Source: a virus. From it: 64,000 bases of DNA. The DNA lies in IMG/VR virus record IMGVR_UViG_3300015371_000003, positions 52,230 to 116,229 of that record, one strand, 5' to 3'. The notes under the pieces were generated by a model. It worked only from the letters and a program-made list of their open reading frames with translations. It did not search any database and was not told the origin of the DNA. This document shows, one piece after another, positions 1,631 to 17,287 of the stretch (position 1 is its first letter; each line of letters starts with the position of its first letter). Position numbers and translations under genes: made by a program.

Positions 1631-3625
1631 ATGCTCAAGTTGACGGACGGCACGCCCCCCAAAGACACTCCTGAATCCAAGATTACCTTCATCCAGAAGG
1701 TGATCAAGGGTGAAACGTGGATGGTGATGGCGCACTCCGCCGTCGAATTAGAGGATGAGTTTTCCAGCCTCTATTACACGGCAGGGCAGCAGAACAACCT
1801 GTTCCTGATGCCCCCGTTCGAACCCAACGTCCTCCTGAACCTCGTCCAGACCAACAACATCCTCAACCAGTGCATCGAAGCGATGGAAGTGAACATCGAT
1901 GGCACCGGGCATGAGTTTATTCCGGCGAAGGATAAAGCCTCCGACAAGTCCGCAGGAAAGCCGGGAGCCGAGGACAACGCTCCGGCACAGTCAGGCATTC
2001 CTCCGCCGACATCTTTTGGCAGCATCCGCAAACAGGATGCGACGGCGGATGACATCGATGAGGAGGAGAAGAAAGTAGCGGAGGGATTCTTCAAAGAACC
2101 CTATCCGAACACCTCGTTTGTGTCGATACGCCGGAGAATGCGGCGGCAGATGGAATCGGTGGGCTATGCGTTCCTCGAAGTACTCCGCAATGTGGCCGGG
2201 GACGTAGTAGCTATCCGGAACATTGAAACGCAGCATGTTCGCATGGTGAAGCTGGATGCCCCCATTCAGGTGAAGAAGAAGATTGAGCGGGACGGGAAAG
2301 TCGTGGAACTGGTGCTCTGGGAGCGGGAGCGACGATTTGCACAGACGGTGGCCCTGAAGCAGCAGGTGTACTACCGGGAGTATGGGTCCACCCGTGAAAT
2401 CAACCGGGAAACGGGGGATTGGGAGACGGACACCGAGAAGGTACCGCCGGAGAAGCGGGGATCAGAACTGCTGATGTTTGGGATCAATCCGGACGTGACC
2501 ACCCCGTACTTCCTCCCCCGGTGGATCAACGAGTTACCCTCCGTCATCGGTTCCCGAGCGGCGGAGGAACAGAACCTGCAATTTCTGGATGCGGGTGGTC
2601 TGCCTCCGGCCATCGTATTTATCCAAGGCGGCACACTCATCAAGGACACCTCCGACCAACTCCGCATGTATTTGTCTGGCCTGAACAAGAACAAGAACCG
2701 GGCGGTGGTCGTGGAGGTGCAATCCTCCAGTGGATCACTGGATGCGGCGGGCAAGGTGGATGTGAAAGTCGAGCGATTCGGTTCTGCCCAATCCCAAGAC
2801 GCGATGTTCACCAACTACGATGAATCCACCGAGGAGCACGTGCGGATCGGCTTCCGGTTGCCCAAGATTTTTCTGGGGCGGGAGGAATCCTACAACTTTG
2901 CGACGGCACAAGTGGCCTACATGATTGCGGAGGCCCAAGTCTTTGGTCCGGAGCGGGAGGAGTTTGACAAGATCATCAACAAGACGATCATCAAGGAACT
3001 GAAGCTCAAGACACTGGAATTCAAGTCCAAGCCCATTACCTTGAAGGATGTCACGTCGATTCTGACGGCTCTGGAATTGTCGGCACCGATGGCAACGCGG
3101 GAATCCTTCCTGAAGGAAGTGAATACGTCGGTGGGCACGTCGTTGGAACTGGCGGAAGTCCCGGCCCCGAATGTGGCCCCCGGTCAAACGCCGTTGCCGA
3201 ATACGCGGACCATCGATGAGATGCACCACGGTGAACTGCCCGCGTCTACCCAAACTCCGCAGATGACGGCTCCGCAACAGGAACCCAAGCCCGAGCCACC
3301 ACCGAAGGAGACACACGTCATCCTGAAACCGGGGGATGAGATGCACCCAGTGCCCGCCAAGGATGAGACGATTCGGGCTAAGCCGAAGGAGAAGAAGGCG
3401 GCGAGTGACATCCTGACGCTAGCGCAGGATTACGCCATCTATCAGGGGTTGATGCCCCAACTGGCGATCAAGCAGGAGTTGACCAAAGAGCGAGCGGATG
3501 CTATCAACGAGGAGCTAGACACGCTCCACCCGGATGATGTGCGTGTGTTCAACAGCCTGCTGGCGATGATGGTGTTTGGATCGGATGACGCGGATCTGTC
3601 CTCCGTGATTGCCGCCACCCGGTAA
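1631..3625 (+). CDS. Portal protein (PBSX/HK97-type)
   Basis: 664 residues. It should form the dodecameric ring at the capsid vertex through which DNA is packaged and ejected. The N-terminal part around residues 65-95 has the pattern of PBSX-family portals: PPF(D/E)P..LxxLxxxNxxLxQCIEAM followed by a Gly/His-containing strand. The middle is a long alpha/beta core. The C-terminal third is proline-rich (residues about 520-590) and then helical, longer than the compact 400-500-residue portals. It opens the structural operon and its stop lies one base before the next ATG. Identification rests on the N-terminal pattern and gene order. Confidence 0.85.
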   Translation: MLKLTDGTPPKDTPESKITFIQKVIKGETWMVMAHSAVELEDEFSSLYYTAGQQNNLFLMPPFEPNVLLNLVQTNNILNQCIEAMEVNIDGTGHEFIPAKDKASDKSAGKPGAEDNAPAQSGIPPPTSFGSIRKQDATADDIDEEEKKVAEGFFKEPYPNTSFVSIRRRMRRQMESVGYAFLEVLRNVAGDVVAIRNIETQHVRMVKLDAPIQVKKKIERDGKVVELVLWERERRFAQTVALKQQVYYREYGSTREINRETGDWETDTEKVPPEKRGSELLMFGINPDVTTPYFLPRWINELPSVIGSRAAEEQNLQFLDAGGLPPAIVFIQGGTLIKDTSDQLRMYLSGLNKNKNRAVVVEVQSSSGSLDAAGKVDVKVERFGSAQSQDAMFTNYDESTEEHVRIGFRLPKIFLGREESYNFATAQVAYMIAEAQVFGPEREEFDKIINKTIIKELKLKTLEFKSKPITLKDVTSILTALELSAPMATRESFLKEVNTSVGTSLELAEVPAPNVAPGQTPLPNTRTIDEMHHGELPASTQTPQMTAPQQEPKPEPPPKETHVILKPGDEMHPVPAKDETIRAKPKEKKAASDILTLAQDYAIYQGLMPQLAIKQELTKERADAINEELDTLHPDDVRVFNSLLAMMVFGSDDADLSSVIAATR

Positions 3626-3626
3626 G

Positions 3627-5144
3627 ATGCCGACGCTCGATCTGCGGACGTATGTGCTGTTGGAGCGGGCCTTTGTCCGGAGGCTCCAACGGTCATGGCG
3701 GCAGCAGTCGGCTCCGCTGTACGCGAAGATTGCCCAAGCCTGCAACGACCACAAATGGGATGAAGCCCGCCGTCTTGTCACCGATCTGGACATGACGGAG
3801 GTCGGCACCGAGAACCGCGAGTGGATCACGTACATGCTCCGGTCGTGTGCCGTCTTCGGAGCCGGTACCGTCTCCAAGAAGAAACCGAGTTTCGTGGGCG
3901 TGGGCAGCTTCGATACCTTCCTGAAGCAGACCACGAACAATTTCCTGCAATACCTCGAATTGACCGCCACCGCTCAGATCCAAGCGGAAGCGTTGCAATC
4001 AATTGCCGAAGATGAGGCTAAGACCAAAGCCGCGATGTTGAAGGCGGCATGGGATGAATCCCAACACCCCCGTGACAAGGAAGGACAGTTCACGGAGGCC
4101 GGGGCCGGAACGGAGGCCAAGTCGGGGGATCCCGAAGGCAGTGGCCCCGCCCGTGTGGAATGGAACAAGCGCAACAAGGCGGTGATGGAAGCGACTGATG
4201 TCTATATTGACACCAGAGAAGCCCATCGAGCTTTAGTGGAGCGATTGAACGCTGAATATCAGGCGGAAACCCCGATGGGGTATCCAGAGGCCGGGTATGC
4301 GGCGTACAAGAAATCCCAAGCCACATTGGAGCAGGCCAACCAAGCGTTGGCACAGGCCGAAACTGCGCTGAAGCAACAAGAACCGCTGATGCGGAAGGAA
4401 ATCGTCCAGAATCTGGCGACAGACGTAGCCAGTGATTTGGGCGTTGATCCACGTTTGATTGACGTGGTGGACGAAGCTCCGCATCCGTTTACGGTTGGAG
4501 ATAAGCAATTTACCGAGGCGGGGCACTACGATCCGACTACCAAACGCATTCAGTTGAATTCCAACAATATCTCGTATGCGAATGCCCCCGGAGTCAAGGG
4601 GGTGGTAGCCCATGAAATTTCTCATGCGATCTATCACCAGTTGAAGATTGCGGCGGAGGAGGAATTTCAACGGTATCTCGTCAAAGCTACGACCGAGGAT
4701 GCCTATACCCCGTGGTTTCATGAGCGGTTTACCACCGATCCCCATAAAATTGGCCGTCAGGTGAAGCCCGAGTACGCCAAGGAAATGGCCGAGGAATTTC
4801 CGGCGTCTACCGTGCTGGCCCGGTTGAGTGGGGGAGATATTTTCTCCGGTATCACTGATGAGATGATTGCTGAAAATGGGCATAGTCGGTATGCCAAATC
4901 GTACTGGGCCGCTGAAGCCGAGAAACGGATAGGGCTGCGGAATTACCGTAACGCCATCAATGAAACGATAGCCGAGATTACGCGGTGGTTGGCCTACCCC
5001 CGGTCATGGGAGGAGGAGAAGCCACCGGATCTGGATTCTCCGTGGGTCAAGTTGACAGAATCCATGTTGGGATGGCATCAACGACAGCAAGCTGAACAGG
5101 CGAGGCAGTTTGCCGCGTCTTTGGCGTCGGGGTTCCGAGCATGA
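3627..5144 (+). CDS. N-terminal half of minor head protein fused to tag and zincin metalloprotease
   Basis: 505 residues; the ATG at 3627 directly follows the portal stop. Residues 1-135 are helical (LLERAFVRRLQRSWRQQ...) and resemble the N-terminus of SPP1 gp7/Mu gpF-type minor head proteins, which normally follow the portal. Residues 142-153 carry the recurrent tag WDESQHPRDKEGQF. A coiled coil follows (about 225-265), then a metalloprotease-like domain with HEISH at 329-333, the HExxH zinc site of zincins. The C-terminal half of the minor head fold is missing here but appears in the gene at 10366. The protein is probably in the virion; whether the protease acts in assembly or in the host is unknown. 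Confidence 0.7.
   Translation: MPTLDLRTYVLLERAFVRRLQRSWRQQSAPLYAKIAQACNDHKWDEARRLVTDLDMTEVGTENREWITYMLRSCAVFGAGTVSKKKPSFVGVGSFDTFLKQTTNNFLQYLELTATAQIQAEALQSIAEDEAKTKAAMLKAAWDESQHPRDKEGQFTEAGAGTEAKSGDPEGSGPARVEWNKRNKAVMEATDVYIDTREAHRALVERLNAEYQAETPMGYPEAGYAAYKKSQATLEQANQALAQAETALKQQEPLMRKEIVQNLATDVASDLGVDPRLIDVVDEAPHPFTVGDKQFTEAGHYDPTTKRIQLNSNNISYANAPGVKGVVAHEISHAIYHQLKIAAEEEFQRYLVKATTEDAYTPWFHERFTTDPHKIGRQVKPEYAKEMAEEFPASTVLARLSGGDIFSGITDEMIAENGHSRYAKSYWAAEAEKRIGLRNYRNAINETIAEITRWLAYPRSWEEEKPPDLDSPWVKLTESMLGWHQRQQAEQARQFAASLASGFRA
3994..4007. repeat. 14-bp palindrome copy 2
   Basis: TGCAATCAATTGCC inside the 3627 gene; codons read L-Q-S-I-A. Confidence 0.7.
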
Positions 5145-6826
5145 TCCTGCCTGAACCTATCACCCTCAACGGTCGGACGGGTACCGTCGCCTATCTGGAC
5201 GCGCAGTGGCATCCAGTCCCGGCGGATCAGGCGACGATGGCGCGAGTCCTGTTCGATGATGGGGGGACTGGTTTCTTTCAGGTGCAACCGATTGCCAAAT
5301 CCACTGAAGATGCGGTAAAATGGGATGAGTCCAAACACCCCCGCGATAAAGAGGGGCAATTTACCGAAGGAGTCGGAGATGGACGAAGTGGTAAGACAAC
5401 CCCGGAATCTGACAGAGGAGCAGGAGGCAGCGGAGGAGTTGGCGTATCGACGCCCCCCAAAGGGGTGGAAGCCGCAGGTCAAAAACGCCCCCCCGCCGTC
5501 CCCGAAGTCCAAGCCGTAGCGCGGGCGTATAACGCGCAGCACGGACTGCCCCCGGTCGAGCACGGCTATGCGACGGTGAATGAGGCCCGAGCAGGGGCCA
5601 TTGCCGATGCCTATGACGCGCTTCCGGTGGATGATACGGATAATCCAGCGGTGCGGGAGGCGTATGCGGCCCTGAGTCGAGAGATTCAGGAGCAGTGGGA
5701 TTTCATCACCTCTCACGGGGTGACGTTCGAACCGTGGACTGGAGAGGGACAGCCGTATCAGAATTCGCCGGAGATGGTGGCGGACATTCAGAAGAACCAC
5801 CACCTGTATTTCTTCACGGGTGGGGAGCCGCATCCGTTGTTGGGGGCGATTGATCCGGCGACGGGGCTGTCCATGAACGACAAACTGCGAGCAGTCCATG
5901 ACTACTTTGGGCATGCCGCAGGCGGCTATGGATTCGGAGCGAGAGGCGAGGAGAATGCGTGGCGGGCGCATTCCCAGATGTTCAGCGCCCAAGCGAGACG
6001 GGCGATGACGACGGAGACACGCGGGCAGAATTCGTGGGTGAATTTCGGGCGACAGAACTACACGCCTGAGGGCATCTACAAGAATATTCCCGCCGCCGAG
6101 CGTCCGTATGCGGTGCAGAAGGTGGCGATTCTCCCCGATGTGTACGTGGTCTTGGAGCATGGTGGAGTCCTGAAATGGGAGGAGTCACAGCATCCACGGG
6201 TGCCGGGAGGGGAGCATGGCGGAGAGTTTACGCGAGTCGCCATTACGAGTCAGCGACCGGCGGATGACCCCGGCCATCAGACCAATCGGGAAGTGTTTGA
6301 GCACATGCGCGTGTTTGCAGGCCGATTGGCAGCCATCCCCGGCGTGACCAACGTGTCGGTGAAGCCCGGAGTCGGGGGGTGGGACGGCGGAGCCGAATCG
6401 ATGTGGCAAGTGTTCTATCGGGGGAATGGTGAAGCTACGCGGTTGGTGGCGATGACGGCCAAGCACTTCAATCAGGATGCGGTGTTGATCCTTAAGAAGT
6501 GTCAGGGTGGAGCGGATTGTCAGCCCGCTACGGAATTGCATTTCTCCAAGGGGATTGGCGGGAAGGTTCGTGTGGGCGTCGAGAAAGTACTGGTTGAGCA
6601 TAAGATTAAGGGCTGGACGTGGATGAAGCGCGACGGACGGACCATTCTTCGAATGGTGGCGATTCCCGAAGAAGGGGATGATCCGGTCACGCATCAGCAG
6701 ACGACAGCGGTGATTAGTCAGCAGTTGCGGGATAAGGGCTTGATGAACAAACGGCACGTGCAAAAGGTGGCCGTGAGTATGATGCGGCGTGAAGGACCAA
6801 ACAGTTATGACCGAATCCTTGGATAA
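5141..6826 (+). CDS. Two-tag virion cargo candidate with a conserved FGHAA/RGQNSWVNFG domain
   Basis: 561 residues, overlapping the previous stop by ATGA. It carries the tag twice: WDESKHPRDKEGQFT from residue 61, and the long variant WEESQHPR..GGEHGGEF from residue 346. Between them, residues about 250-300 contain HDYFGHAAGGYGFG, ARGEENAW and TRGQNSWVNFG. I recall this motif set from other large phage proteins near portals, but its biochemistry is unknown to me. After the second tag comes another unassigned globular domain. The architecture is two independent modules, each preceded by a tag. The linker around residues 80-125 is Gly/Ser-rich and overlaps another reading frame. Confidence 0.65.
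   Translation: MILPEPITLNGRTGTVAYLDAQWHPVPADQATMARVLFDDGGTGFFQVQPIAKSTEDAVKWDESKHPRDKEGQFTEGVGDGRSGKTTPESDRGAGGSGGVGVSTPPKGVEAAGQKRPPAVPEVQAVARAYNAQHGLPPVEHGYATVNEARAGAIADAYDALPVDDTDNPAVREAYAALSREIQEQWDFITSHGVTFEPWTGEGQPYQNSPEMVADIQKNHHLYFFTGGEPHPLLGAIDPATGLSMNDKLRAVHDYFGHAAGGYGFGARGEENAWRAHSQMFSAQARRAMTTETRGQNSWVNFGRQNYTPEGIYKNIPAAERPYAVQKVAILPDVYVVLEHGGVLKWEESQHPRVPGGEHGGEFTRVAITSQRPADDPGHQTNREVFEHMRVFAGRLAAIPGVTNVSVKPGVGGWDGGAESMWQVFYRGNGEATRLVAMTAKHFNQDAVLILKKCQGGADCQPATELHFSKGIGGKVRVGVEKVLVEHKIKGWTWMKRDGRTILRMVAIPEEGDDPVTHQQTTAVISQQLRDKGLMNKRHVQKVAVSMMRREGPNSYDRILG
5283..5296. repeat. 14-bp palindrome copy 3
   Basis: TGCAACCGATTGCC inside the 5141 gene; codons read V-Q-P-I-A. Confidence 0.65.
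5379..5519 (+). CDS. Possible overlapping 46-residue gene inside the cargo gene
   Basis: In another frame of the 5141 gene, an ATG at 5379 is preceded by AAGGAG at 7-nt spacing and opens 46 codons ending at TAG 5517-5519. The peptide is charged and protein-like (RNLTEEQEAAEELAYRRPP, then a Lys/Pro-rich tail). The main frame here encodes only a low-complexity Gly/Ser linker. That suggests the alternative frame may be the more constrained one, or that the two frames were joined by an old frameshift. Comparison with relatives is needed. Confidence 0.35.
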   Translation: MDEVVRQPRNLTEEQEAAEELAYRRPPKGWKPQVKNAPPPSPKSKP

Positions 6827-8003
6827 GGCGTTACAGGAATTGGAACAGCTTGTGGCAGAAGAAGCCGCGTCATCGGACACGGGTGAAGATTTGCCAGAGT
6901 ATGATCCGCTGCCTGAAGACGATGACGATGTGTCAGTCACGTTTCTGGCTGGTCCTGCGGTGAAATGGGATCCATCCAAGCACCCGCGTGACAAAGAGGG
7001 GCAGTTCACGGACACCGTAGGCACCATCCGAGGAGTGGTTCGCACCACCGCTGAACAGGCCCGCCGGGATCTGGTCGCACTCGGGAAGAAGGTGGAGCAG
7101 TTAGACCACCGTCATGCGAAAGCCGCCGAGGAATCGCGGGTAGCGTGGGCGGCGTTCATGAAAGACGCACGGGAGCGGAAACGTCCCCTGAAGATTGACG
7201 GGGCGGCGGCGAAGAAATTGCCGTCCTACAAAGCCGCGCAAGCCGCCGATGCCAAGGTCATCGCCATTTCCGAGGAGACATCCCGAGTCGCCAGAGAAGT
7301 CAACAAAGAAGCGTTACGACAACTCGTGGTGCCGGAACGGGAGCGGTCCCTTGTGGAGTTTCTGGTTCCCGAGGGGCAATTGAATCCGGATCCACGGATT
7401 GAAGCTGGAATTGGCGACCACGCGAAGCGAGCGTTGGATGTCTTCCGCAAGTACGATGGGTCCGGGGAGTTGATGGGCGTCCCCATTCCACCGGGGAAAG
7501 AAGAACAGTTCAAAGAGATTTTTGGGGACGTGGAGTTTGAACATCTGCCGGATGGAAGTACGTGGGTGACGAAGAAGCTCCGGTTGACGCGGGCACCGGC
7601 TGGTGCGCGGGCCAATGCGTCGGCGTTTGGGGTACAAATTGGTGGGACTCGTGAGTTGGAGCGGACCATCTATCACGAGGTGGCGCACCATGTGGAGTTT
7701 GCCAACTCGGACATTTATCAGGCCGCTGTGGATCTGCGGGCTTCGCTTGCCAGCGAGTCTACGCCCAAGTCCTTGAATGACTTGAAGGGCGTGGGTGGGT
7801 ATGGACCCGAAGAAATTGCGCTGCCGGGAAAATTTCTCGATTCGTATGTGGGCAAGGTCTATCCGGAGGATGCACGGGCCACAGAAATGTTGTCCACCGG
7901 GATGGAGTACTATCTGACGGACCCGATTCGATTTGCCCGAGAAGCCCCCGAGCATTTCAAGTTTGTGTGGAACGTGATGCACGGGAAGTATCGGAGGAAG
8001 TAA
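6807..8003 (+). CDS. Tagged zincin metalloprotease, virion cargo candidate
   Basis: 398 residues. ATG 6807 is preferred over GTG 6789 because AAGGA lies just upstream of it. The N-terminus is acidic (residues 1-48), then the tag WDPSKHPRDKEGQFT starts at residue 54. A helical charged region follows. A zincin-type active site HEVAHH starts at residue 290, and a downstream ATEMLSTGMEYY stretch could supply the third metal ligand. The domain resembles phage zinc proteases found beside portal and minor head genes. It is only distantly similar to the HEISH protease two genes upstream, so the block holds two different zincins. Confidence 0.7.
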   Translation: MTESLDKALQELEQLVAEEAASSDTGEDLPEYDPLPEDDDDVSVTFLAGPAVKWDPSKHPRDKEGQFTDTVGTIRGVVRTTAEQARRDLVALGKKVEQLDHRHAKAAEESRVAWAAFMKDARERKRPLKIDGAAAKKLPSYKAAQAADAKVIAISEETSRVAREVNKEALRQLVVPERERSLVEFLVPEGQLNPDPRIEAGIGDHAKRALDVFRKYDGSGELMGVPIPPGKEEQFKEIFGDVEFEHLPDGSTWVTKKLRLTRAPAGARANASAFGVQIGGTRELERTIYHEVAHHVEFANSDIYQAAVDLRASLASESTPKSLNDLKGVGGYGPEEIALPGKFLDSYVGKVYPEDARATEMLSTGMEYYLTDPIRFAREAPEHFKFVWNVMHGKYRRK

Positions 8004-8230
8004 TGGTGGAAGTCGAAGTGTACGGCGAACGAGCACGGTGCCAAAACGGGGTGTGGACGGCGGAGAGTCAGGCGCTGACGGATCTGCTGAACGCTCCGTG
8101 GAATCAGCCGGATGCCTTCCGGTATCGGCTGGATCCGGATATCGATGCGGCGGAGCACGTCGTGAAGACGATGGGCGCACAGGTGATTTCCACCGAACCC
8201 CCGCCCACTGAACCCGGCGTGGTGTACTGA
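8003..8230 (+). CDS. 75-residue hypothetical protein coupled to the zincin gene
   Basis: The start overlaps the zincin stop (TAATG) with GGAGGAA upstream, so the two are translationally coupled. The product is acidic, mixed alpha/beta in appearance, with a Pro-rich end (TEPPPTEPG). It lacks the tag. Tight coupling suggests a partner or inhibitor of the preceding protease, but that is inference from position only. Confidence 0.6.
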   Translation: MVEVEVYGERARCQNGVWTAESQALTDLLNAPWNQPDAFRYRLDPDIDAAEHVVKTMGAQVISTEPPPTEPGVVY

Positions 8231-8245
8231 CGAAACCTTAGGAGT

Positions 8246-8259
8246 TGCACTTGAGTGCA
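8246..8259. repeat. 14-bp palindrome copy 4
   Basis: TGCACTTGAGTGCA, extended to TTGCAC...GTGCAA, between genes immediately 5' of the kinase ribosome binding site. Confidence 0.75.
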
Positions 8260-8273
8260 ACGGAGCAACGCCG

Positions 8274-10082
8274 ATGCGGTCGTACCGAGACATTCTCCGG
8301 GGGGCATTGCGTTACGTCCACATCCTCAAGTGGGATGAGTCTAAAATTCACCGTAATCCTGCCGGGAGTCCGGGTAGTTCCGGGGGGCAGTTTGCGAAGA
8401 TGGGGATGCGGGGGAGTGCGTATGGCACGGCTCCGGTGCCCTCCTCTGAAGCTATTGCCCGTATGCCAAGTGGGGCACCGGAAGCGATGGCCCACATGCG
8501 ACGGGCGGGCCTGATCGCACAGCAGGATCGGGAGAAGTATCAGGAATTAGCCGCAGCGGAATCCCAAGCGGTGCGTCAAGGCGGCGGCGTGGCCGGATGG
8601 CGGTCGAGGGATAAAGCCGCAGAGCGGTACAAGGATGTGCTGATCAACCGCCCCCGTGCGGAGAATTTCGAACCACCTCCTCCCCCACCCCCAGAACCCA
8701 CACCAGTACTCACGTCTGGCAGTGCCACCAGTGTCGTGAAGAAATTGGGCGGCAGTTCGAATGCCTGCTACGTCGTCCAGATGGAGGATGGTTCCAAAGC
8801 CTTCTTCAAACCGGAAGCCGGGGAGACGTGGGAAGCCGGGTTCTGCAACAACGACATTTCCACCTACATCACCAATAAAGACTTTTCACTGGCGGAGCGG
8901 GAAGCCACCGCACATGAAGTGTCTATCGCGTTGGGGTTTGGGGAGTTGGTGCCGGAAACCCATCTCCGTGAACACTTCGACGTGCCGGGGATCGATCTAG
9001 CCACCGATGATGAATCCGGCGGCGGTTACGATGAAGACTACGTGCGGAGCCTCTACAACCAGTACCATGAAAAAGCCCAAGAAAAGGCTTTTGATGAGGC
9101 TGGTGAGGAGATGGCGAATCAGTACTATGATGCTCAGCAGGAGCATTTGAGGGATGTCAAGAATCGCGCCGAGGAAATGACGGATATCTGGAATGAGGTA
9201 ATTAAGGAATTTCCAGATGGTCCGGACTACGGATCACAGTCGGCGTTGCAAGAACATCCTCGTCTCCCGCTTGGGTCACAGCACTTCAGCCGCCCCCCGC
9301 AGGTCGGGGTGGTTGATCCACTGGACGTGTTGAAAGAAGCGGATGTGGACATCTCGGCGGCGATGAACAATGAGGAGCGAGAACGGGTTGCGGACGTGTT
9401 CCGTGATCGGTTGAAAGCCGGTCATCAGGAACTAGGCGATGTGGACGAGGAAGCCGCCAAAGACGATCTGGATCGGGATCAGTGGTACGAGGATCACCAA
9501 AATACCGAGGCACGGTTAATCGAAAGCAAAATTCAGTCGTTTGATTCGTGGCGGCATAGTCAGGGTTACGACAGCGGCGATCAAGGAGGGGGCGGCAACG
9601 TCTTCAAGAATTCCGAGGCTCCTCATCCTCACGGCGGATCCCTGCAACGGTGGTTAAACAGCGGAGGCCGCGATGGGGATATGACCCATGAGGAGGCCAC
9701 GCAATTTGCGGTGCTCGATTATGTGTTGGGCACGATGGATCGGCACGGCAACAACATCATGTTCTCCGGTGGGAAAGCCTACGCCATTGATAACGGTTAT
9801 GCCTTCCCCGGCCCGGATACGCCCGATGGGTTTACTTACCGGTCAGATGCCGTACGGGAGTGGATGGGGGATGACCAACACCGCGAAGTCCCCGAAAGCA
9901 CCCGGAATGAAATCTTGGGAGCGATGAATCGGACGGACTGGAAAGCCTTGGTAGACCGTCACCCGAGCATGAGCCGGGAAGAACGGCAGTCGTTTCTGGA
10001 CCGGGTGGACAAGATGAAAGAAGCCCTGTCCTACGCCGAGGGGTTGTCCACCCTCTGGCATGACCAGCAATTGATGTATTGA
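8274..10082 (+). CDS. Tagged HipA/PI-kinase-like protein, virion cargo candidate
   Basis: 602 residues. The long tag variant begins at residue 20 (LKWDESKIHRNP...GSSGGQF). After a Pro-rich linker (about 138-150), a kinase-like domain begins: an ATP-lobe strand KAFFKPEAGE near residue 180, a catalytic-loop pattern DYVLGTMDRHGNN with H491 and N494, and a metal-binding D506 in AIDNG. This HxxN...D layout is that of HipA, FAM20 and phosphatidylinositol-kinase-like enzymes. A large charged helical insertion (about 245-420) separates the lobes. The substrate is unknown; the HipA relationship makes a host translation or regulatory target plausible. A 14-bp palindrome lies just upstream of its ribosome binding site. 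Confidence 0.7.
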   Translation: MRSYRDILRGALRYVHILKWDESKIHRNPAGSPGSSGGQFAKMGMRGSAYGTAPVPSSEAIARMPSGAPEAMAHMRRAGLIAQQDREKYQELAAAESQAVRQGGGVAGWRSRDKAAERYKDVLINRPRAENFEPPPPPPPEPTPVLTSGSATSVVKKLGGSSNACYVVQMEDGSKAFFKPEAGETWEAGFCNNDISTYITNKDFSLAEREATAHEVSIALGFGELVPETHLREHFDVPGIDLATDDESGGGYDEDYVRSLYNQYHEKAQEKAFDEAGEEMANQYYDAQQEHLRDVKNRAEEMTDIWNEVIKEFPDGPDYGSQSALQEHPRLPLGSQHFSRPPQVGVVDPLDVLKEADVDISAAMNNEERERVADVFRDRLKAGHQELGDVDEEAAKDDLDRDQWYEDHQNTEARLIESKIQSFDSWRHSQGYDSGDQGGGGNVFKNSEAPHPHGGSLQRWLNSGGRDGDMTHEEATQFAVLDYVLGTMDRHGNNIMFSGGKAYAIDNGYAFPGPDTPDGFTYRSDAVREWMGDDQHREVPESTRNEILGAMNRTDWKALVDRHPSMSREERQSFLDRVDKMKEALSYAEGLSTLWHDQQLMY

Positions 10083-10085
10083 AAC

Positions 10086-10114
10086 TTGACATATCCACCA
10101 TTTGGTGGTAAACT
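10086..10114 (+). promoter_or_regulatory. Strong sigma-70-type promoter with palindromic spacer
   Basis: TTGACA (10086-10091) and TAAACT (10109-10114) with exactly 17 bp between them. The spacer contains CCACCA-TT-TGGTGG, a 6+6 inverted repeat, in the ideal place for a repressor operator. It lies between the kinase gene and the small gene at 10135. Confidence 0.8.
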
Positions 10115-10134
10115 TACTACATGGGGGGTGTGTG

Positions 10135-10359
10135 ATGCACGTGGAATTGCTGGATGTTTCGTCAGGAAATGAGGAAGTGTACGGCACCGTCCGGATGGAC
10201 AACGGACAGGTGGTAGTCGAAGGGGACGTGCCCGCCCGTGTCAAACGAGATATCGAATTCGAGCGGCGGCACACCGATGTCGGGGACGAAGCGTTTCTTC
10301 TGCGCCTTGAACAGCGGGTGTTCACAGGCCGGTATCTGCGGGCGCGATTCGTGAAATAA
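10135..10359 (+). CDS. 74-residue hypothetical protein
   Basis: ATG at 10135 follows GGGGGG-TGTGTG and is 20 bp downstream of the promoter at 10086, so it is the first gene of that transcript. The product is predicted beta-rich and charged, with no cysteine clusters or membrane segment. No family recognised. As the first product of a dedicated promoter with a built-in operator it could be a regulator, but no helix-turn-helix is evident. Confidence 0.6.
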   Translation: MHVELLDVSSGNEEVYGTVRMDNGQVVVEGDVPARVKRDIEFERRHTDVGDEAFLLRLEQRVFTGRYLRARFVK

Positions 10360-10365
10360 TCCCCC

Positions 10366-13300
10366 ATGCTCCGTATCCACCCGCCGAAGGTGCAACCCAT
10401 TGCACCCTCCCTTCTTGAAGTCCTGAAGTTTGATCCGAGTGAACCTCGTGATCCTCACGGACGATGGACGACTTTCGGCGCGTCCATTCGAGTTGGGGAC
10501 CGAGAGATTGCCGTAGTCAAACCAGCCCGCGCCAGAGACGATCAACTGGTCCCCCTGAACGTCGTCGCATTTGATACCGAATTTCAGCGGGAGCAGGGGT
10601 TTTATCTGGGCGTCGGTGGAATTGGGGGGATCGGCACCCGCTACCAACGTTTCGGGGACTTCATTGCCTCTCATGACAGCATCGAAGCGGCGGAAGTGTC
10701 CGTGCAGGAGAACGGGCGCGTGGGTTTCACCAACGGACGCCACCGGTATGCGTGGCTCCGTGATCAAGGATTGACCACCATTCCCGTAGCCATGACCCCG
10801 GAGTCAGTCAGGAACGCCAAGAAGCATGGGTATCTGGCGGCGGTCAAGCTGGCGTGGGATGAGAGCCAACCTCGTGACGCTAAAGGACGGTGGGCAAAAG
10901 GATCAGCAGAACCTCCACCAGTCGGTCCACGTATTGGATTTGTGGGGCCGGATGGGAAGGAGCATGTTGGACGTAAGACGGGGGGATTAGGAGGGTATTC
11001 CGAAGATCACACGGACACGGCTCGCCGGTTACTAGATAAGGAATACTCCACGGCACTGAGTCAGGCGCAAGCACGTGGTGGGGATTACCCAAATGCCATT
11101 CGTTTGATGTTGGAACAAGGAGCCATTCGGTATTGGGTGCGGAACGGGGAGATTGCGCTGCATTTTCAAGCAGGCCACCCAAAGACCGTCGAACACGTCA
11201 TTCAATTTCTGCATGACAATTTTCAGGATGGGGATCGCATTTATATCGACATCGAAGGGGCCGAACCGCATGTGCATTTTTTCGATAATGTCGGAGCCGC
11301 GAATCGTACTATTCGTCAGACAAAGCCACTCAAGAAGGTGGCGCAAGAGCATTCCTACGGCAACACCCAGATTCAAATTGCTCCGACCAGTGCCGCCGCA
11401 CTTTCTCTGAATATGGCCCGTGCTGCCATCCGCGATGAACATTGCATGGCAACCGGCAAGGATGTGGATCCGAACCATGTGACGGTGCGCTTCGGCCTCC
11501 TGAACGATGATCTGGATGGTCTGCGGTCGTTTATTGTCCGTCAACAGTCCTTCGAAGCTGAGGTCGGAGAGATTGAACTATTCCCGGCCAGTGAGCACAG
11601 CGATGGAGCCGTGCCCGTCGTGGCCCGCATCGTCAGTCCCGAGTTGCATGCCATCGAAGCGGAGATAGGGCAGTATGCCGACTTCAAGGATAAGAATTTC
11701 CCCGAGTACAAACCCCATTGCACCCTTGCCTACGTCCACCCGGACAAAGCGGATTACTACCGTGATCTGTTCGTCAACGGATCGTTCGTGGTGCAGAGCA
11801 TTACCATCAGTCATGCCTCCGGGGTGCAGGAGACGATCCCCTTCGGGATGGCCCAGAAGTGGGACGTGACGAAGCGGGATGGCAAGAGCACCCGCTTTCA
11901 TAATCGTCCGCATTGGGCCGAGAGCCTACACCCACGTCAGCCTGCGGGATCTTCTCGCGGCGGCGAATTCATGTCCACGTTGCATGGTCCTAGAGATGCG
12001 TTGGATTCTCTGCTCAACAAAGAGAAGAACGTCAGCATTGACCGGAATGATGTCCGTCGCTTTCTCGAATTAGCCGGGGAGCAACTGGAAGATCCGGACC
12101 TCACCGATTTGCAAGTCGAGGGGATGGAGATTTTTGGGGGCAATGGTCTGGGCATCAAACGTGATCAGATGCCGCAGATTCCCCGTGAGCATCGGCAACG
12201 ATTTTTGAGAGAGTTGGTGGCGGCGGGTGTCAAGATTACGGAGGAGTCCGTCGATCCCCTCACCCTGAAACCCACCCAGAAGGAAATCTCCGCCCGCCGG
12301 GTGATGGAGAAGATTACCAAGTACGAAACCAAGAACAAAGCCTTTCCTCCCCTCCTCGTCTCTCTGGATGACCGAGTATTAGACGGCCATCATCATTGGG
12401 GCATGATGGCGGCATTTGCGCTGGATGTACCGGAGGCCAAGGTGCCCATCTTCCGGTTGCACATCAAGACCAAAGCCGCCTTGTCCATGATGCACGCTTA
12501 CATGCGAAAGCACCACATCAAGCGGGCGTCGATTACCGGGGAGAAGATTGCAGCGGATCCAGTCACAGGACGCTACGTTACACCTTTCGTCTCTTTCGAA
12601 AAACAAGGCGATGAACAACTCCGGATGATCGCCAGTCTCAATTCCAGCCGGTTGGCGACGTGGGGATTCACGGCAGAGGCCGAAGTCTTGGGGATGGCCC
12701 GGTACAAGTTGACCGCTGTACTGGACGGTCGCACCAGCAAATTCTGCCGGATGATCAACGGACATATCTTCGACGTGCCGGATGCCCGCCGCAAGGTGAT
12801 CGAAGCCCTGAACGTCCAAGACCCGAACGACTTGAAGACGGTGCAGCCGTGGCCCAAGCAAACCAAGGAGGCGATGGCTGAGTACGCCAAGATGAGTCCA
12901 CAGGATTTTGTGGATCGGGGACTGCACATTCCTCCGTATCATCCCCACTGCCGCACGCTCCTCCGCCATGTGCAATCAAGTGCAGGGAAAGCCACCGAAC
13001 CTCCGGTCCCCACCCTCCCTGATGACACCGAGGTGTTCCATCCGATCACCCAAGCGGACTTGAAAGAGTTGGGGGTGGAGGCCACGCCCGAAGAAGTTGC
13101 GTGGTGGAACAGTCAGATTGGGATGAGTCCCACGGAGTTGATCGCCAAGCTCACCGGCATGCCGCCCCAAGAAATTCTGACCAAGGGCAAAGGCATCGGA
13201 GCCAATCCTATTCGCTTCGATGAGGGGGGCGCGGGGAACATCGGCGTCCGAGCCAGAGGCGAACTACCGAGCGGCGTGGAATTCGCCATGGGCGCGATTC

Positions 13301-13773
13301 TCGATCCGTTCACAGGCATTTTCTACTTGTCAGAAGCCGCACTGGAAGTCGGAACACCAGCGGCAGAAATCTCGTTTCTCAAGAATCTGTTCTCGGAGAT
13401 GATCAATACCGGCCTTCGCACGTCAGCGACCGAAGTGGCGGTGGGCGTGGCCGGGAATGCGGCGTATTATGCGAAACTCGGTTTCCTCCCCGATGATTTG
13501 GAGTGGGAGACGCTACGCACGCATACGTTGACGGAGCTAGAGAGCGGTGGATTGCAGGAGATGTTTCAGTCCTTGGCCCCGCTGGATCAGGAACTGGTGA
13601 AGCATCTGTTGCAGGATCAATCCGCGTCAGCCCTTTCCGCATTGGTGGATCTGCCATTCACCTACGAAGGCCGTACATTCGGAGAGTGGATGCTGGAAGA
13701 TGCGGGCGGGACGTGGGGATTGGATCTGACGGATGAGGCGGTAGTGAACCAAGCGAAAGCCTACCTGTCATGA
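10366..13773 (+). CDS. Giant polyvalent head protein: ParB-like, 2H phosphoesterase, minor-head C-domain, GNAT-like
   Basis: 1135 residues with at least six modules. Tag 1 is near residue 22 (KFDPSEPRDPHGRW). A ParB/sulfiredoxin-like domain carries NGRHRY at 123-128. Tag 2 starts at 164 (WDESQPRDAKGRW). After an unassigned domain comes a 2H phosphoesterase with HVT at 371 and HCT at 451. Long tag 3 starts near 517. A second ParB-like domain has DGHHHW at 673-678. Residues about 745-875 match the C-terminal half of SPP1 gp7/Mu gpF minor head proteins (VLDGRTSKFCRMINGHIF ... PPYHPHCRTLLRHV). The end (about 955-1045) looks GNAT-like, with GNAAYYAKLGF. It is probably a virion component delivering several enzymes. 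Confidence 0.75.
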   Translation: MLRIHPPKVQPIAPSLLEVLKFDPSEPRDPHGRWTTFGASIRVGDREIAVVKPARARDDQLVPLNVVAFDTEFQREQGFYLGVGGIGGIGTRYQRFGDFIASHDSIEAAEVSVQENGRVGFTNGRHRYAWLRDQGLTTIPVAMTPESVRNAKKHGYLAAVKLAWDESQPRDAKGRWAKGSAEPPPVGPRIGFVGPDGKEHVGRKTGGLGGYSEDHTDTARRLLDKEYSTALSQAQARGGDYPNAIRLMLEQGAIRYWVRNGEIALHFQAGHPKTVEHVIQFLHDNFQDGDRIYIDIEGAEPHVHFFDNVGAANRTIRQTKPLKKVAQEHSYGNTQIQIAPTSAAALSLNMARAAIRDEHCMATGKDVDPNHVTVRFGLLNDDLDGLRSFIVRQQSFEAEVGEIELFPASEHSDGAVPVVARIVSPELHAIEAEIGQYADFKDKNFPEYKPHCTLAYVHPDKADYYRDLFVNGSFVVQSITISHASGVQETIPFGMAQKWDVTKRDGKSTRFHNRPHWAESLHPRQPAGSSRGGEFMSTLHGPRDALDSLLNKEKNVSIDRNDVRRFLELAGEQLEDPDLTDLQVEGMEIFGGNGLGIKRDQMPQIPREHRQRFLRELVAAGVKITEESVDPLTLKPTQKEISARRVMEKITKYETKNKAFPPLLVSLDDRVLDGHHHWGMMAAFALDVPEAKVPIFRLHIKTKAALSMMHAYMRKHHIKRASITGEKIAADPVTGRYVTPFVSFEKQGDEQLRMIASLNSSRLATWGFTAEAEVLGMARYKLTAVLDGRTSKFCRMINGHIFDVPDARRKVIEALNVQDPNDLKTVQPWPKQTKEAMAEYAKMSPQDFVDRGLHIPPYHPHCRTLLRHVQSSAGKATEPPVPTLPDDTEVFHPITQADLKELGVEATPEEVAWWNSQIGMSPTELIAKLTGMPPQEILTKGKGIGANPIRFDEGGAGNIGVRARGELPSGVEFAMGAILDPFTGIFYLSEAALEVGTPAAEISFLKNLFSEMINTGLRTSATEVAVGVAGNAAYYAKLGFLPDDLEWETLRTHTLTELESGGLQEMFQSLAPLDQELVKHLLQDQSASALSALVDLPFTYEGRTFGEWMLEDAGGTWGLDLTDEAVVNQAKAYLS
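10391..10404. repeat. 14-bp palindrome copy 5
   Basis: TGCAACCCATTGCA with flanking GG/CC, in the first codons of the giant head gene (V-Q-P-I-A). Confidence 0.7.
12971..12984. repeat. 14-bp palindrome copy 6
   Basis: TGCAATCAAGTGCA within the giant head gene (V-Q-S-S-A). Confidence 0.65.
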
Positions 13774-13946
13774 TCAAAGTGAAACCGATTACTTCCCACC
13801 GAGCAGGACCGGCCATCAAACCACTGGTGACGGTGCCTGCCAAGCCTCCGATGGTGAAGCGGTCCTATCAGCAATTGGTCACGCGACAGAACGTCCCTCC
13901 CGAGAGAGCCATATCTCTCCTGTTGAGCTTGCCTAGAGAAAAATAG
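13770..13946 (+). CDS. 58-residue basic hypothetical protein
   Basis: ATG at 13770 overlaps the stop of the giant head protein (ATGA) and the frame runs to TAG 13944-13946. The product is Pro/Lys-rich in its first half and then has a short helix (ERAISLLLSLPREK). Translational coupling to the preceding gene supports it. No function suggested. Confidence 0.55.
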   Translation: MIKVKPITSHRAGPAIKPLVTVPAKPPMVKRSYQQLVTRQNVPPERAISLLLSLPREK

Positions 13947-13975
13947 TTGTTGCCTCTCAACCGGTCCTGTAAAAT
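13947..13975 (+). promoter_or_regulatory. Candidate promoter upstream of the tagged small genes
   Basis: TTGTTG and TAAAAT with a 17-bp spacer. Copy 7 of the dispersed palindrome (13980-13993) begins 5 bp after the -10 element, where a bound protein would block initiation. Confidence 0.4.
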
Positions 13976-13979
13976 AACG

Positions 13980-13993
13980 TGCAATCAGTTGCA
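13980..13993. repeat. 14-bp palindrome copy 7
   Basis: TGCAATCAGTTGCA, extended by G/C on both sides, between a -10 box and a ribosome binding site. Confidence 0.75.
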
Positions 13994-14007
13994 CCGGGAG
14001 AGCCACC

Positions 14008-14526
14008 ATGCCCCTACATACGACCGGATTGACTTCGCGGCACGACCTCGATCATCCGGACGAGAAACCTCCTGCGAAGGCCGATCCGCTGCCCTATGAA
14101 CGGGTGTTGAAGTTCAACCCCAATCATGGGCCGGATGGCCGGTTCACCTCCGGCGGTGGAGGCCGCAGAGGTGGGACGGAAGGTCCACCGCGAGTGGGAG
14201 CCTTCGGGCAGAAGCTGTCTCCGGCGGAGGTTGAGTTTCGGGTTTCTCGCCCGAAAACATATCAAGATCGATTGAAAGGTTCAGCGGCACGAGCCGCGAA
14301 TGATGCGAGGCTGGATCGACAGCAGGCGGAAGTCGCCCGTCAGCAACAAGAATCTCTCGCAGAAGCAACAAGAATTATTTCTGGAGTGACCTATGCCTCA
14401 GCGGGGCGTCAAGCATCGGCCCGCCAGATGCTGAGCAATGCGAGTCTTGCGACTCGTGCGACGACTACCACGCACACGGGTTCGATGGTCGGAGGTGTTC
14501 CCACCAAGCGATCCACTTTCAGCTAA
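14008..14526 (+). CDS. Tagged low-complexity protein without recognisable enzyme domain
   Basis: 172 residues. A degenerate tag starts near residue 34 (LKFNPNHGPDGRFTSGGG). The rest is Gly-rich, then helical and Gln/Ala/Arg-rich, ending in a Ser/Thr-rich tail. No catalytic motif is visible. It fits the block as a carrier of the tag alone, either a structural filler or a decayed cargo gene. The ATG at 14008 has GGGAGAG upstream. Confidence 0.6.
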   Translation: MPLHTTGLTSRHDLDHPDEKPPAKADPLPYERVLKFNPNHGPDGRFTSGGGGRRGGTEGPPRVGAFGQKLSPAEVEFRVSRPKTYQDRLKGSAARAANDARLDRQQAEVARQQQESLAEATRIISGVTYASAGRQASARQMLSNASLATRATTTTHTGSMVGGVPTKRSTFS

Positions 14527-14538
14527 GGGATTCGGGTC

Positions 14539-14844
14539 ATGCCCATCACTTCCGGGTTTACTACCCGTGCCGCCGCCGCCGAGAAAGGCGAAGGCCATAT
14601 CCACACGGATAAGTGGCATCGCTGTATTGAGCACGTGAAAGGCAAAAGCAGCGGCGTCGATCCCTATGCGGTGTGTACCCACAGCATCGGATATGCGGGA
14701 TCGGTCAATCCTGAACATCGGACGGAAGGACGCCATGCGTCCGCGAATCCCAAGCGGTTCAAGACCAAAGAAGGCCAGCGAAGTGCCCGTGCCCGTGAGA
14801 AAGCCGCGAAACAGTCCTATGCGGAAGTCCTGAAGTTCAAATAG
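14539..14844 (+). CDS. Small His/Cys protein ending exactly where the tag would begin
   Basis: 101 residues. The first ten residues (MPITSGFTTR) are nearly identical to those of the next gene product (MPITEGFTTR). A HxHTDKWHRC...YAVC stretch around residues 22-47 could bind metal. The C-terminus is basic and ends with EVLKFK-stop, matching the (V)LKF that opens the tag in neighbouring proteins. It may be a truncated relative that lost tag and cargo domain, or a free-standing N-terminal module. Confidence 0.6.
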   Translation: MPITSGFTTRAAAAEKGEGHIHTDKWHRCIEHVKGKSSGVDPYAVCTHSIGYAGSVNPEHRTEGRHASANPKRFKTKEGQRSARAREKAAKQSYAEVLKFK

Positions 14845-14847
14845 TCC

Positions 14848-15924
14848 ATGCCGATTACGGAAGGCTTTACCACACGGGGGATGGTCGCCAAAAGTGGCTA
14901 CTCGTGTGTCGGTCCCCCCAAGCAAGGGCACATGGAGAAGCGGGGGCACCAGAAGAAACGGAAAGCCGCCTCCTATCTGGGGGTGTTGAAGTTTGATGAA
15001 AGTGCGGTCAATCGCCAACCAGCGGGTGCTCCCGGTAGCAAAGGCGGAGAATTCGCCCCGAAAGGTCAAGGATTTAAGGGGAGTACCGGCAGCAGAACTG
15101 GTAAAGATTTGACGCCCGCTCAGCGAGCCATGCAGCGGACGTTGAAGGAACAGAGCCGCAAGCGCATCCATAAAGTGGACACCCCCGAACAAGGGGTGGC
15201 GCTGATTCTCAAGGGCGAACGGGTGGAATTACGGGACACCAAAGATGTTCACACGGTCCTCAAAGAACTAGGCGAGATGGCGATCAAAGCCAAGGAAGCC
15301 TGTGGCGGGAAGGAACCGTGTGAAGGCGTCCCCAATTTCGATCCCTGTCTGGTGACGGTCAAAGGCACCAGCTTGTTTTGCTCTGAAAAACTCAAAACGA
15401 AAGAATTTCCTCACGGGATTCCGCGTATTGAGATGCCGCAGTTCAAGTCCAAGAATCCCGTGCCGGGGAGCGAAGCCGATAAACTGCCCCGTGATGCCAA
15501 CGGAGAAGTGGATGCTACGGATGCGTTTCTCAAGCATCTGGATGAAGCAGGTGTGAAAACAAATTCGTATGACACCGTGCTTGCCCGCAAATTGAAGGCG
15601 AGTCAGGCGGAGATGGAAGGCGCGAAAGTCGCCGCCATGATGCTGTCGTCACGGGATCCCAAGAAAGCCCGTATTGTGGTGTCGGCAGACAACTACGTGG
15701 TGGATGGGCACCACACGTGGGCCGCGTCGGTGGGCCGGGATGCTGAGGACGGCAATCTGGACAACGACAAAGAAATGGAAGTGGTCCGGATCAATCTGCC
15801 GATGTCCGACATCTATCAGTTGGCGGTGGAGTGGACCAAGACTTTTGGCATGCCGCAAGCCGGTATCAAAAAGCGTGATTGGTTGAGGGCTGTGCTCACC
15901 TTCGGGCAGGCGTCTCTCAACTGA
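14848..15924 (+). CDS. Tagged ParB-like domain protein
   Basis: 358 residues. Order: N-terminal MPITEGFTTR leader shared with the preceding gene product, basic linker, long tag variant from residue 47 (LKFDESAVNRQPAGAP...KGGEF), an unassigned cysteine-bearing region (about 145-190), then a ParB-like domain with VVDGHHTWAA around residue 286. The DGHHxW motif matches the second ParB-like domain of the giant head protein, so the two are intragenomic paralogues attached to different partners. ParB/sulfiredoxin-like folds can be nucleases, CTPases or kinases; which applies here is unknown. Confidence 0.65.
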   Translation: MPITEGFTTRGMVAKSGYSCVGPPKQGHMEKRGHQKKRKAASYLGVLKFDESAVNRQPAGAPGSKGGEFAPKGQGFKGSTGSRTGKDLTPAQRAMQRTLKEQSRKRIHKVDTPEQGVALILKGERVELRDTKDVHTVLKELGEMAIKAKEACGGKEPCEGVPNFDPCLVTVKGTSLFCSEKLKTKEFPHGIPRIEMPQFKSKNPVPGSEADKLPRDANGEVDATDAFLKHLDEAGVKTNSYDTVLARKLKASQAEMEGAKVAAMMLSSRDPKKARIVVSADNYVVDGHHTWAASVGRDAEDGNLDNDKEMEVVRINLPMSDIYQLAVEWTKTFGMPQAGIKKRDWLRAVLTFGQASLN

Positions 15925-16690: not shown

Positions 16691-17287
16691 ATGCCGAAAC
16701 CAAAACACAAGGCACTCGTGATCAAGAACGAAGAAGCACAACTTGTGTTTGGGGAGGTGTACGCCCCGAACCGTCCCGACGCGCAAGGTGAGTACATGAC
16801 GGCCACGGACATTCAGAAGATGGCCCATGAATTCATCCGGTCAGGCAAGATGGGTCAGATTGATGTGATGCACGGGAACAAAGTGGTGACGGGCGCGAGT
16901 GTGGTTGAGTCCTTCGTGGCGGATGACACGGATTCCCGCTTCCTGCCCGGTTCGTGGGTGATCGGTGTCCACATTCCCGATCCTCAACTCTGGTCTGCCA
17001 TCAAGAAGGGTGAAATCAACGGCTTCAGCATGGAAGCCTTGGTGACACGCCATGAGATGGATGTGGAAGTCGAAATTCCTCCGGTGGTCACAGGCTTGAC
17101 CAGTAAGCATGACGATCATCAACACAAATTTTTCGTCGCCTACGACCAAAAAGGGGAATTCAAAGGCGGTGTGACGGATACGGTCAATGGGCATTTCCAT
17201 GCGATTGTCGCCGGGACACATACTCAGGATGCCGCAGGCCACCGTCACCGCTTTTCTAGCGTTGATAACGTGCGGATTCTAGGGTAG
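16691..17287 (+). CDS. XkdF-like prohead serine protease
   Basis: 198 residues from ATG 16691, preceded by GGGGAGGGG; the longer open frame upstream is in the proline-rich gene. LVFGEVYAPNRPDAQGE(Y)MT near residues 18-37 and the downstream helix are typical of phage XkdF-type proteases (peptidase S78-like). Candidate catalytic residues are H61 (VMHGN), S113 (NGFSMEA) and possibly E73. The enzyme would process scaffold and other head proteins during maturation. The C-terminal 60 residues are unusually His-rich (HDDHQHKF, NGHFHA, GHRHRF), suggesting a metal site not needed for S78 catalysis. Confidence 0.8.
   Translation: MPKPKHKALVIKNEEAQLVFGEVYAPNRPDAQGEYMTATDIQKMAHEFIRSGKMGQIDVMHGNKVVTGASVVESFVADDTDSRFLPGSWVIGVHIPDPQLWSAIKKGEINGFSMEALVTRHEMDVEVEIPPVVTGLTSKHDDHQHKFFVAYDQKGEFKGGVTDTVNGHFHAIVAGTHTQDAAGHRHRFSSVDNVRILG

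Follow-up and report, generated by a model that had tools for sequence, protein, structure and literature searches.

To our knowledge, the way in which proteins are chosen for loading beside the DNA in phage heads is known for few systems, such as the capsid targeting sequence (CTS) of T4 and the Dar proteins of P1. The T4 CTS is removed by the prohead protease. This conserved short sequence is carried by otherwise diverse internal proteins directed at defence and loads them into the scaffold core (PMC3012670). The P1 Dar proteins are anti-defence proteins that are loaded into the head and ejected with the DNA, some of them being cut by the prohead protease (PMC12810830). Multi-enzyme polyvalent proteins, which are encoded at phage portals and are thought to ride in heads, have been published (Iyer et al. 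2017, PMC5512222; PMC9503650), and packaged ADP-ribosyltransferases (ARTs), Nudix and 2H domains fused to MuF, portal or protease have been described (PMC9503650). In the MuF polymorphic toxins, whose gene adjoins that of the portal, the MuF domain is linked to variable effector domains (Jamet et al. 2017, PMC5576092).

The locus described here has effector-like modules that share a short peptide tag. Text searches of PMC5512222, its 2022 follow-up PMC9503650 and PMC5576092 found no shared short tag before modules, and the motif strings had no match in the open-access journal papers searched, in which notation varies. The shared tag is apparently undescribed so far. The cargo system is thus of a known kind, since the polyvalent and MuF literature describes it, and the tag, which was not found there, appears to be the new element.

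Setting and forms of the tag

The window, the whole stretch of DNA analysed, is 64,000 nucleotides long and covers positions 52,230-116,229 of a 116,229-base IMG/VR virus record. Its head genes run from the portal through the tagged block and the S78_2/XkdF protease to a probable scaffold and the major capsid protein (Table 1), and portal, protease, scaffold and capsid are each homologous to those of Stenotrophomonas phages of the genus Delepquintavirus. Ten tag copies, all in frame and on the plus strand, are distributed over seven ORFs between the portal and the protease, and no further plausible copies were found elsewhere in the window. The original prediction, made from the letters of this DNA, had named the ORFs of all ten copies and had placed the block between the portal and the protease and capsid genes. 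Both statements held, with the portal (PHROG 12) and the S78_2 protease (PF14550) flanking the block directly.

Table 1. Positions in the window of the tags, the tagged ORFs and the bordering head genes
Feature	Position	Strand	Sequence or basis
Portal protein, without tag, upstream border	1631..3625	+	PHROG 12 portal 4.5e-20; 43-46% identity to Delepquintavirus portals
Tagged block	3627-15924	+	seven tag-bearing ORFs between portal and protease
ORF o1: N-domain common with Delepquintavirus minor head protein, tag 1, zincin (HEISH)	3627..5144	+	homology and motif
Tag 1, short, in o1	4050..4091	+	WDESQHPRDKEGQF
ORF o2: small beta domain, tag 2, helical domain (phrog_3170), tag 3, alpha/beta domain	5141..6826	+	PHROG, structure model
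Tag 2, short, in o2	5321..5362	+	WDESKHPRDKEGQF
Tag 3, long, in o2	6176..6229	+	WEESQHPRVPGGEHGGEF
ORF o3: tag 4 near N-terminus, C-terminal HEVAHH zincin-like domain (phrog_33618)	6807..8003	+	motif, PHROG
Tag 4, short, in o3	6966..7007	+	WDPSKHPRDKEGQF
ORF o4: tag 5 near N-terminus, PI3/PI4/HipA-like kinase	8274..10082	+	PF00454 34 bits, cut-off 27.1
Tag 5, long, in o4	8331..8393	+	WDESKIHRNPAGSPGSSGGQF
ORF o5: tag 6, PFIN/ParB-like, tag 7, 2H phosphoesterase, tag 8, ParB-like (phrog_2859), MuF region, C-terminal domain	10366..13776	+	Pfam, PHROG
Tag 6, short, in o5	10429..10467	+	FDPSEPRDPHGRW
Tag 7, short, in o5	10855..10893	+	WDESQPRDAKGRW
Tag 8, long, in o5	11914..11970	+	WAESLHPRQPAGSSRGGEF
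ORF o6: short protein, tag 9 behind conserved N-terminus	14008..14526	+	comparison with relatives
Tag 9, third variant, in o6	14113..14145	+	FNPNHGPDGRF, then TSGGGG
ORF o7: 3' end VLKFK-stop, the first residues of a tag	14539..14844	+	fused to o8 in relative L108
ORF o8: tag 10, ParB-like domain (phrog_2859)	14848..15924	+	PHROG
Tag 10, long, in o8	14992..15054	+	FDESAVNRQPAGAPGSKGGEF
Prohead protease XkdF/Peptidase_S78_2, downstream border	16697..17287	+	PF14550 86.6 bits; 58% identity to Delepquintavirus
Probable scaffold protein, without tag	17298..18392	+	homolog of Delepquintavirus gene preceding capsid gene
Major capsid protein, without tag	18433..19377	+	70-71% identity to Delepquintavirus major capsid protein

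The core of the tag is W/F-D/N-x3-HPR-x3-G-x-F or a long "PxG…GGxF" form. The short form has the consensus W/F-D-x3-(H)PR-D-x2-G-Q/R/K-F/W and the long form …PR/HR/NR-x-P-x-G…GG-E/Q-F. A third form, FNxxHxP-x-GRF, occurs once in the window. The variant FNxxHDPx(S/T)G(R/K/Q)F was found in 32 IMG/VR stretches (L310-L340; L numbers are labels of the loci compared), often N-terminal on small proteins. An 11th tag, VLKFDPAQPRDAKGRWV, lies in the same record 12.6 kb upstream of the window (G000:C1:39659-40192, plus strand), at the N-terminus of a lone ART-like protein of about 177 residues that has a YHGT motif of the ADP-ribosyltransferase kind. The ART assignment is based on homology to L104 and on this motif, with no Pfam hit behind it.

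Proteins of the tagged block

Among the enzyme types originally predicted for the block, the HipA/PI-kinase-like domain of o4 scored above the Pfam cut-off, ParB-like domains matched phrog_2859 in both o5 and o8, and the 2H phosphoesterase of o5 scored at its Pfam cut-off of 27.0. The two unlike HExxH zincins stood as motifs, HEISH in o1 and HEVAHH in o3, and less firmly as domains: o3 is a putative zincin assigned on its motif, and the Zn_peptidase_2/SprT-like match of o1 is below the Pfam cut-off and accompanied by a weak minigluzincin fold match. For the o1 model, a fold search found nothing at E <= 0.001, and the sole match in a related-locus search with o1 was the contig carrying the window's own sequence. 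A possible GNAT, also proposed, was not detected by Pfam in the window. The C-terminal domain of o2 (6230-6823) has a weak likeness to phage SAM lyase (Pfam E 0.022; Foldseek 6znb, probability 1.00, TM 0.46) and is a possible anti-restriction enzyme. ORFs o7 and o8 share the start MPIT-GFTTR, are in the same frame and form a single ORF in L108.

The original prediction had overlooked a weak MuF domain in o5 and the minor-head anatomy of the block. The MuF region (residues 750-865) scores 19.4 bits against a Pfam cut-off of 29.6 and is 40-56% identical to the Delepquintavirus minor head protein (DLP3 gp2/Summit gp2). The first 130 residues of that protein match the N-domain of o1 and its middle matches the MuF region of o5, which indicates that the block can be read as an expanded minor-head (MuF) locus. 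The Delepquintavirus phages have the same order of portal, protease, scaffold and capsid. However, their minor head protein is a single, untagged chain of about 445 residues, whereas the window splits its parts into o1 and o5, with about 8-9 kb of tagged cargo between them. No short-form tag was found anywhere in the Delepquintavirus genomes, in which portal, protease, capsid and minor head protein are homologous to those of the window; the tag is therefore not needed to build that head. We infer that cargo was inserted into a Delepquintavirus-like minor head gene, rather than lost from one.

Occurrence and carriers of the tag

A degenerate DNA pattern of the short form matched at least 118 stretches in IMG/VR, and the reversed pattern matched none. 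With a looser pattern, all 50 tagged records and none of 48 control records were matched, again with no match of the reversed pattern. These counts indicate that the tag is not a chance product. By the looser pattern, tagged records contain one to seven copies each, always on a single strand per record. Bacterial and archaeal genomes totalling 257 Gb yielded few short-form matches: 27 stretches, mostly in Gastranaerophilales and Clostridia MAGs and also in Rhodoblastus, Stieleria and others. Bare tag peptides gave three matches or none in underpowered tblastn searches against INPHARED, and a 48-residue tag query added Streptomyces phage Gilgamesh and unrelated matches. Gilgamesh is a cultured phage, and its unannotated gp48 (L304:13935-27809) has 4624 residues, with the tag at residue 31; the gene directly follows that of a portal-MuF fusion. 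In another isolate, Xanthomonas phage PhiXhv-5, the portal bears the tag in its C-terminal portion. The core motif is alike in phages with different portal and protease families. A tag universal in portal-enzyme fusions was rejected, as the published portal-InPase fusion of BcepF1 is untagged.

Among 89 deduplicated tagged proteins from the matches listed, Pfam and PHROGs detected ARTs (including Alt-like ones), MuF, minor head and head morphogenesis proteins, portals of several families, Zeta toxins, Nudix, 2H/Acb1, PFIN, prohead proteases, RelA/SpoT, topoisomerase and methyltransferases; kinases and ParB-like proteins also carry the tag. Architectures include portal-tag (L023), portal-Mu-tag (L084, L019), portal-tag-Nudix (L053) and portal-tag-RelA/SpoT (L077), an N-terminal tag followed by ART (L008, L064, L086), and a tag directly before an S78_2 protease domain (L027). 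Six tags separate ParB, GNAT and PI/HipA-like kinase domains in one chain of L016, and six occur in a PFIN-2H-...-MuF chain of L119. In L006:91-3111, a single chain contains Acb1 (anti-CBASS), RyR-like and methyltransferase domains, a tag and a Zeta toxin. Known relatives of tagged portals align only to residue 450-475, about 40 residues before the tag (510-512), and the tag and enzyme thus look like add-ons to an ordinary portal. Of 147 tags, 37 lie within 25 residues of the N-terminus, 3 near the C-terminus and 107 internally.

On the same strand, the genes adjoining tagged genes mostly encode portals, large terminases, head morphogenesis proteins and head proteases. MuF was present in 36 of 49 tagged records versus 8 of 48 controls, an enrichment that is weakened, yet not removed, by the choice of tagged contigs to hold a head module and of random contigs as controls. 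The median distance from tag to MuF was 3.4 kb, compared with 11.8 kb under random shifting. S78 or S78_2 occurred in 22 of 50 tagged records versus 2 of 48 random contigs; among MuF-positive records the counts were 16 of 36 and 2 of 8, and the difference is not clear. Given this and the selection of tagged contigs for a head module, the co-occurrence was dropped as a sign of cleavage. A profile search had been proposed to ask whether the tag always lies near portals and beside varied enzymes. The variety of enzymes and the adjoining portal, terminase, MuF and head-protease genes were found; "always" was not borne out, because the distance from the MuF gene is 15-75 kb for some tagged proteins and the 11th tag lies about 14 kb upstream of the portal.

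Selection, shuffling and predicted disorder

Pairs of tags from the same genome are 73% identical, whereas their 18-20 flanking residues are 10-11% identical (7-8% between genomes). At 1150 residue-identical sites of such pairs, 603 codons were identical versus 518 expected from codon usage. Silent sites are thus near-saturated while the residues are kept, which indicates selection on the peptide rather than the DNA, as had been proposed from third codon positions that differ between copies, and led us to reject recombination at conserved DNA. At the variable tag positions, likeness was 0.52 within and 0.27 between genomes (0 of 2000 permutations), and 0.47 versus 0.32 when only tags of different ORFs were compared. 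Together with the unrelated flanks and the near-saturated silent sites, this likeness fits co-adaptation to a partner in that phage; shared ancestry of the copies and base composition may contribute to it.

The window phage was compared with relatives L009, L010, L014, L047, L048, L057, L070, L071, L078, L095, L098, L104, L108 and L119, and homology often starts or stops at tags. The zincin module of o1 starts at its tag, is preceded by other upstream parts in L014 and in L009, and is a separate ORF in L057, with the tag at residue 25. The middle domain of o2 is absent from L119 and L095 and occurs alone, tag to tag, in L035 (361 residues). The tag-ART module, a lone N-terminally tagged protein in the record of the window phage, lies between the o1 N-domain and the tag-zincin in L104; the two are 70% identical, and the match begins at the tag. 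When all tagged proteins are taken together, an internal homology start falls within 10 residues of a tag in 25% of cases versus 9% expected, a count in which related contigs are not independent and tags themselves draw alignment ends. These breaks indicate that "tag + domain" behaves as a shuffled unit.

In the AlphaFold model of o2, pLDDT is below 50 solely at 51-63, 74-114 and 337-361, and these stretches contain or flank its two tags, between three folded domains. In the o1 model, the tag is in a low-confidence stretch (about 133-167) before the zincin, and the N-domain is modelled poorly too. The 30 residues behind tags are rich in Gly/Ser (24% versus 15%), and those before tags show no enrichment. 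The tags are accordingly predicted by these models to sit in disordered linkers.

Possible function of the tag

We consider it an even chance that the tag is a head-cargo tag, recognized in head assembly and probably also processed. Effector-like domains would travel as "tag-linker-domain" modules within the expanded minor-head (MuF) locus, and the tag, as a short linear peptide, would dock each module on some component of the head as it grows. In this way, terminally tagged single-domain proteins as well as the individual modules of fused polyproteins would end up inside the capsid, the head protease would probably later cut at the tag, parting modules from the portal, MuF or one another, and the encapsidated modules could exit together with the DNA. 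We infer docking, cleavage, packaging and injection from several features. The tagged set joins proteins of the head interior (portal, MuF, head protease) with toxin and counter-defence types (ART, Alt-like ART, Zeta, Acb1/2H, Nudix and RelA/SpoT). The N- and C-terminal tags counted above are as an address tag would show, and terminal tags on single-domain proteins, some far from the MuF gene, speak for such a tag as well. A cut site is suggested where tags stand between portal and enzyme or separate the domains of long chains, and a conserved partner is suggested by the core that phages have in common although their portals and proteases differ. These three observations point different ways. 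The likeness of the core across different portal and protease families and the homologous Delepquintavirus head, which is built without the tag, count against the head-cargo reading. The original prediction is supported in part, for its effector-like modular enzymes at a head locus with a shared peptide under selection, and the packaging or processing signal that it saw in the peptide is a candidate function.

A processing linker only, at which the prohead protease or zincins encoded in the block would cut while other parts bring the proteins into the head, is an unlikely explanation that still deserves weight. Chains of portal, tag and enzyme or extension (L053, L077, L084, L019) favor it, because the portal stays in the head and delivery needs release; related portals that align only until shortly before the tag, the six-tag chains of L016 and L119, and the tag immediately upstream of the S78_2 domain in L027 point the same way. 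P1 DdrB and DarA are cut before or during packaging (PMC5512222, PMC12810830). However, roughly one tag in four is so close to a protein end, within 25 residues, that cutting frees nothing, 22 of 50 tagged records have S78 or S78_2, with no clear excess over controls among MuF-positive records, and the capsid and scaffold of the window, natural protease substrates, are untagged. Recruitment alone in turn fails to explain the fused copies, since a portal or MuF protein needs no address tag. The T4 CTS unites address and cut properties, and a head-cargo tag, probably processed, is thus preferred over processing alone.

It is improbable that the tag works during or after ejection, as a handle for unfolding, tail passage or a host factor. 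Phages that differ in their head proteins, and presumably in their hosts, have a constant core in common, which agrees better with a partner that is widely conserved than with a single phage protein, yet the likeness of tags within a genome suggests a partner specific to the phage. A functionless relic of domain shuffling, left as a recombination junction or duplicated linker, would account for the frequent homology starts near tags, which show that shuffling there is common, and is nevertheless very improbable: it is not identity of the DNA that has been preserved, single-domain proteins with terminal tags have no junction at the tag, and a neutral linker would not have kept W, HPR, G and F in such a range of phages. 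That the tag forms an inner structural element of one known fold common to all carriers, the case that the original prediction had named as refuting it, is hardly credible. A profile of 40 tags had no match among PDB chains, disorder is predicted between domains, and a dozen or more unrelated domains carry the tag, which also stands at the ends of proteins.

The head-cargo reading extends to a phage-wide cargo code, in which one motif across many tailed-phage lineages and distant hosts would mark almost any enzyme for head loading (and release), with payloads built by swapping tag-domain cassettes; we place its probability somewhat short of even. A tag that can be recognized from sequence alone would allow injected effectors of metagenomic phages to be predicted, new toxins and counter-defence enzymes among them, and packaging could then be tested by changing a few residues. 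The tag could also be used for loading in phages engineered for laboratory strains.

Comparison with known systems

The tagged proteins resemble the polyvalent proteins (PMC5512222) in combining unrelated effector-type domains (zincin, 2H, ParB, ART, RelA/SpoT, Nudix) in one or adjacent chains and in lying near portal or terminase genes, often fused to MuF or portal. ORF o5 has at least two unrelated effector-type domains in one chain (PFIN/ParB-like, 2H and ParB-like, with MuF), and the block is encoded with virion genes, directly between portal and protease. Metallopeptidases, typical of the polyvalent class, may be represented by the HEISH and HEVAHH motifs, with Pfam hits below cut-off and a weak fold match. 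Unlike polyvalent proteins, the tagged modules are often spread over several tagged ORFs. As in the MuF toxins (PMC5576092), MuF is tied to variable effector domains near the portal gene. However, the MuF toxins have MuF and a C-terminal toxin immediately downstream of the portal, whereas the MuF of the window, below the Pfam cut-off, is in the C-terminal half of o5, several genes downstream, and many tagged proteins have no MuF domain. The P1 Dar proteins are different proteins from the tagged set, and no common tag was found among them in the passages of PMC12810830 searched.

The T4 CTS, like the tag, is one conserved short sequence on otherwise diverse proteins; head loading is known for the T4 set, and the tag is read from sequence alone. 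In contrast to the CTS, which is N-terminal, the tag is often internal (107 of 147 copies), is repeated in one chain and occurs also on portals and proteases. By this analogy, the tag would work most like the capsid targeting sequence of T4.
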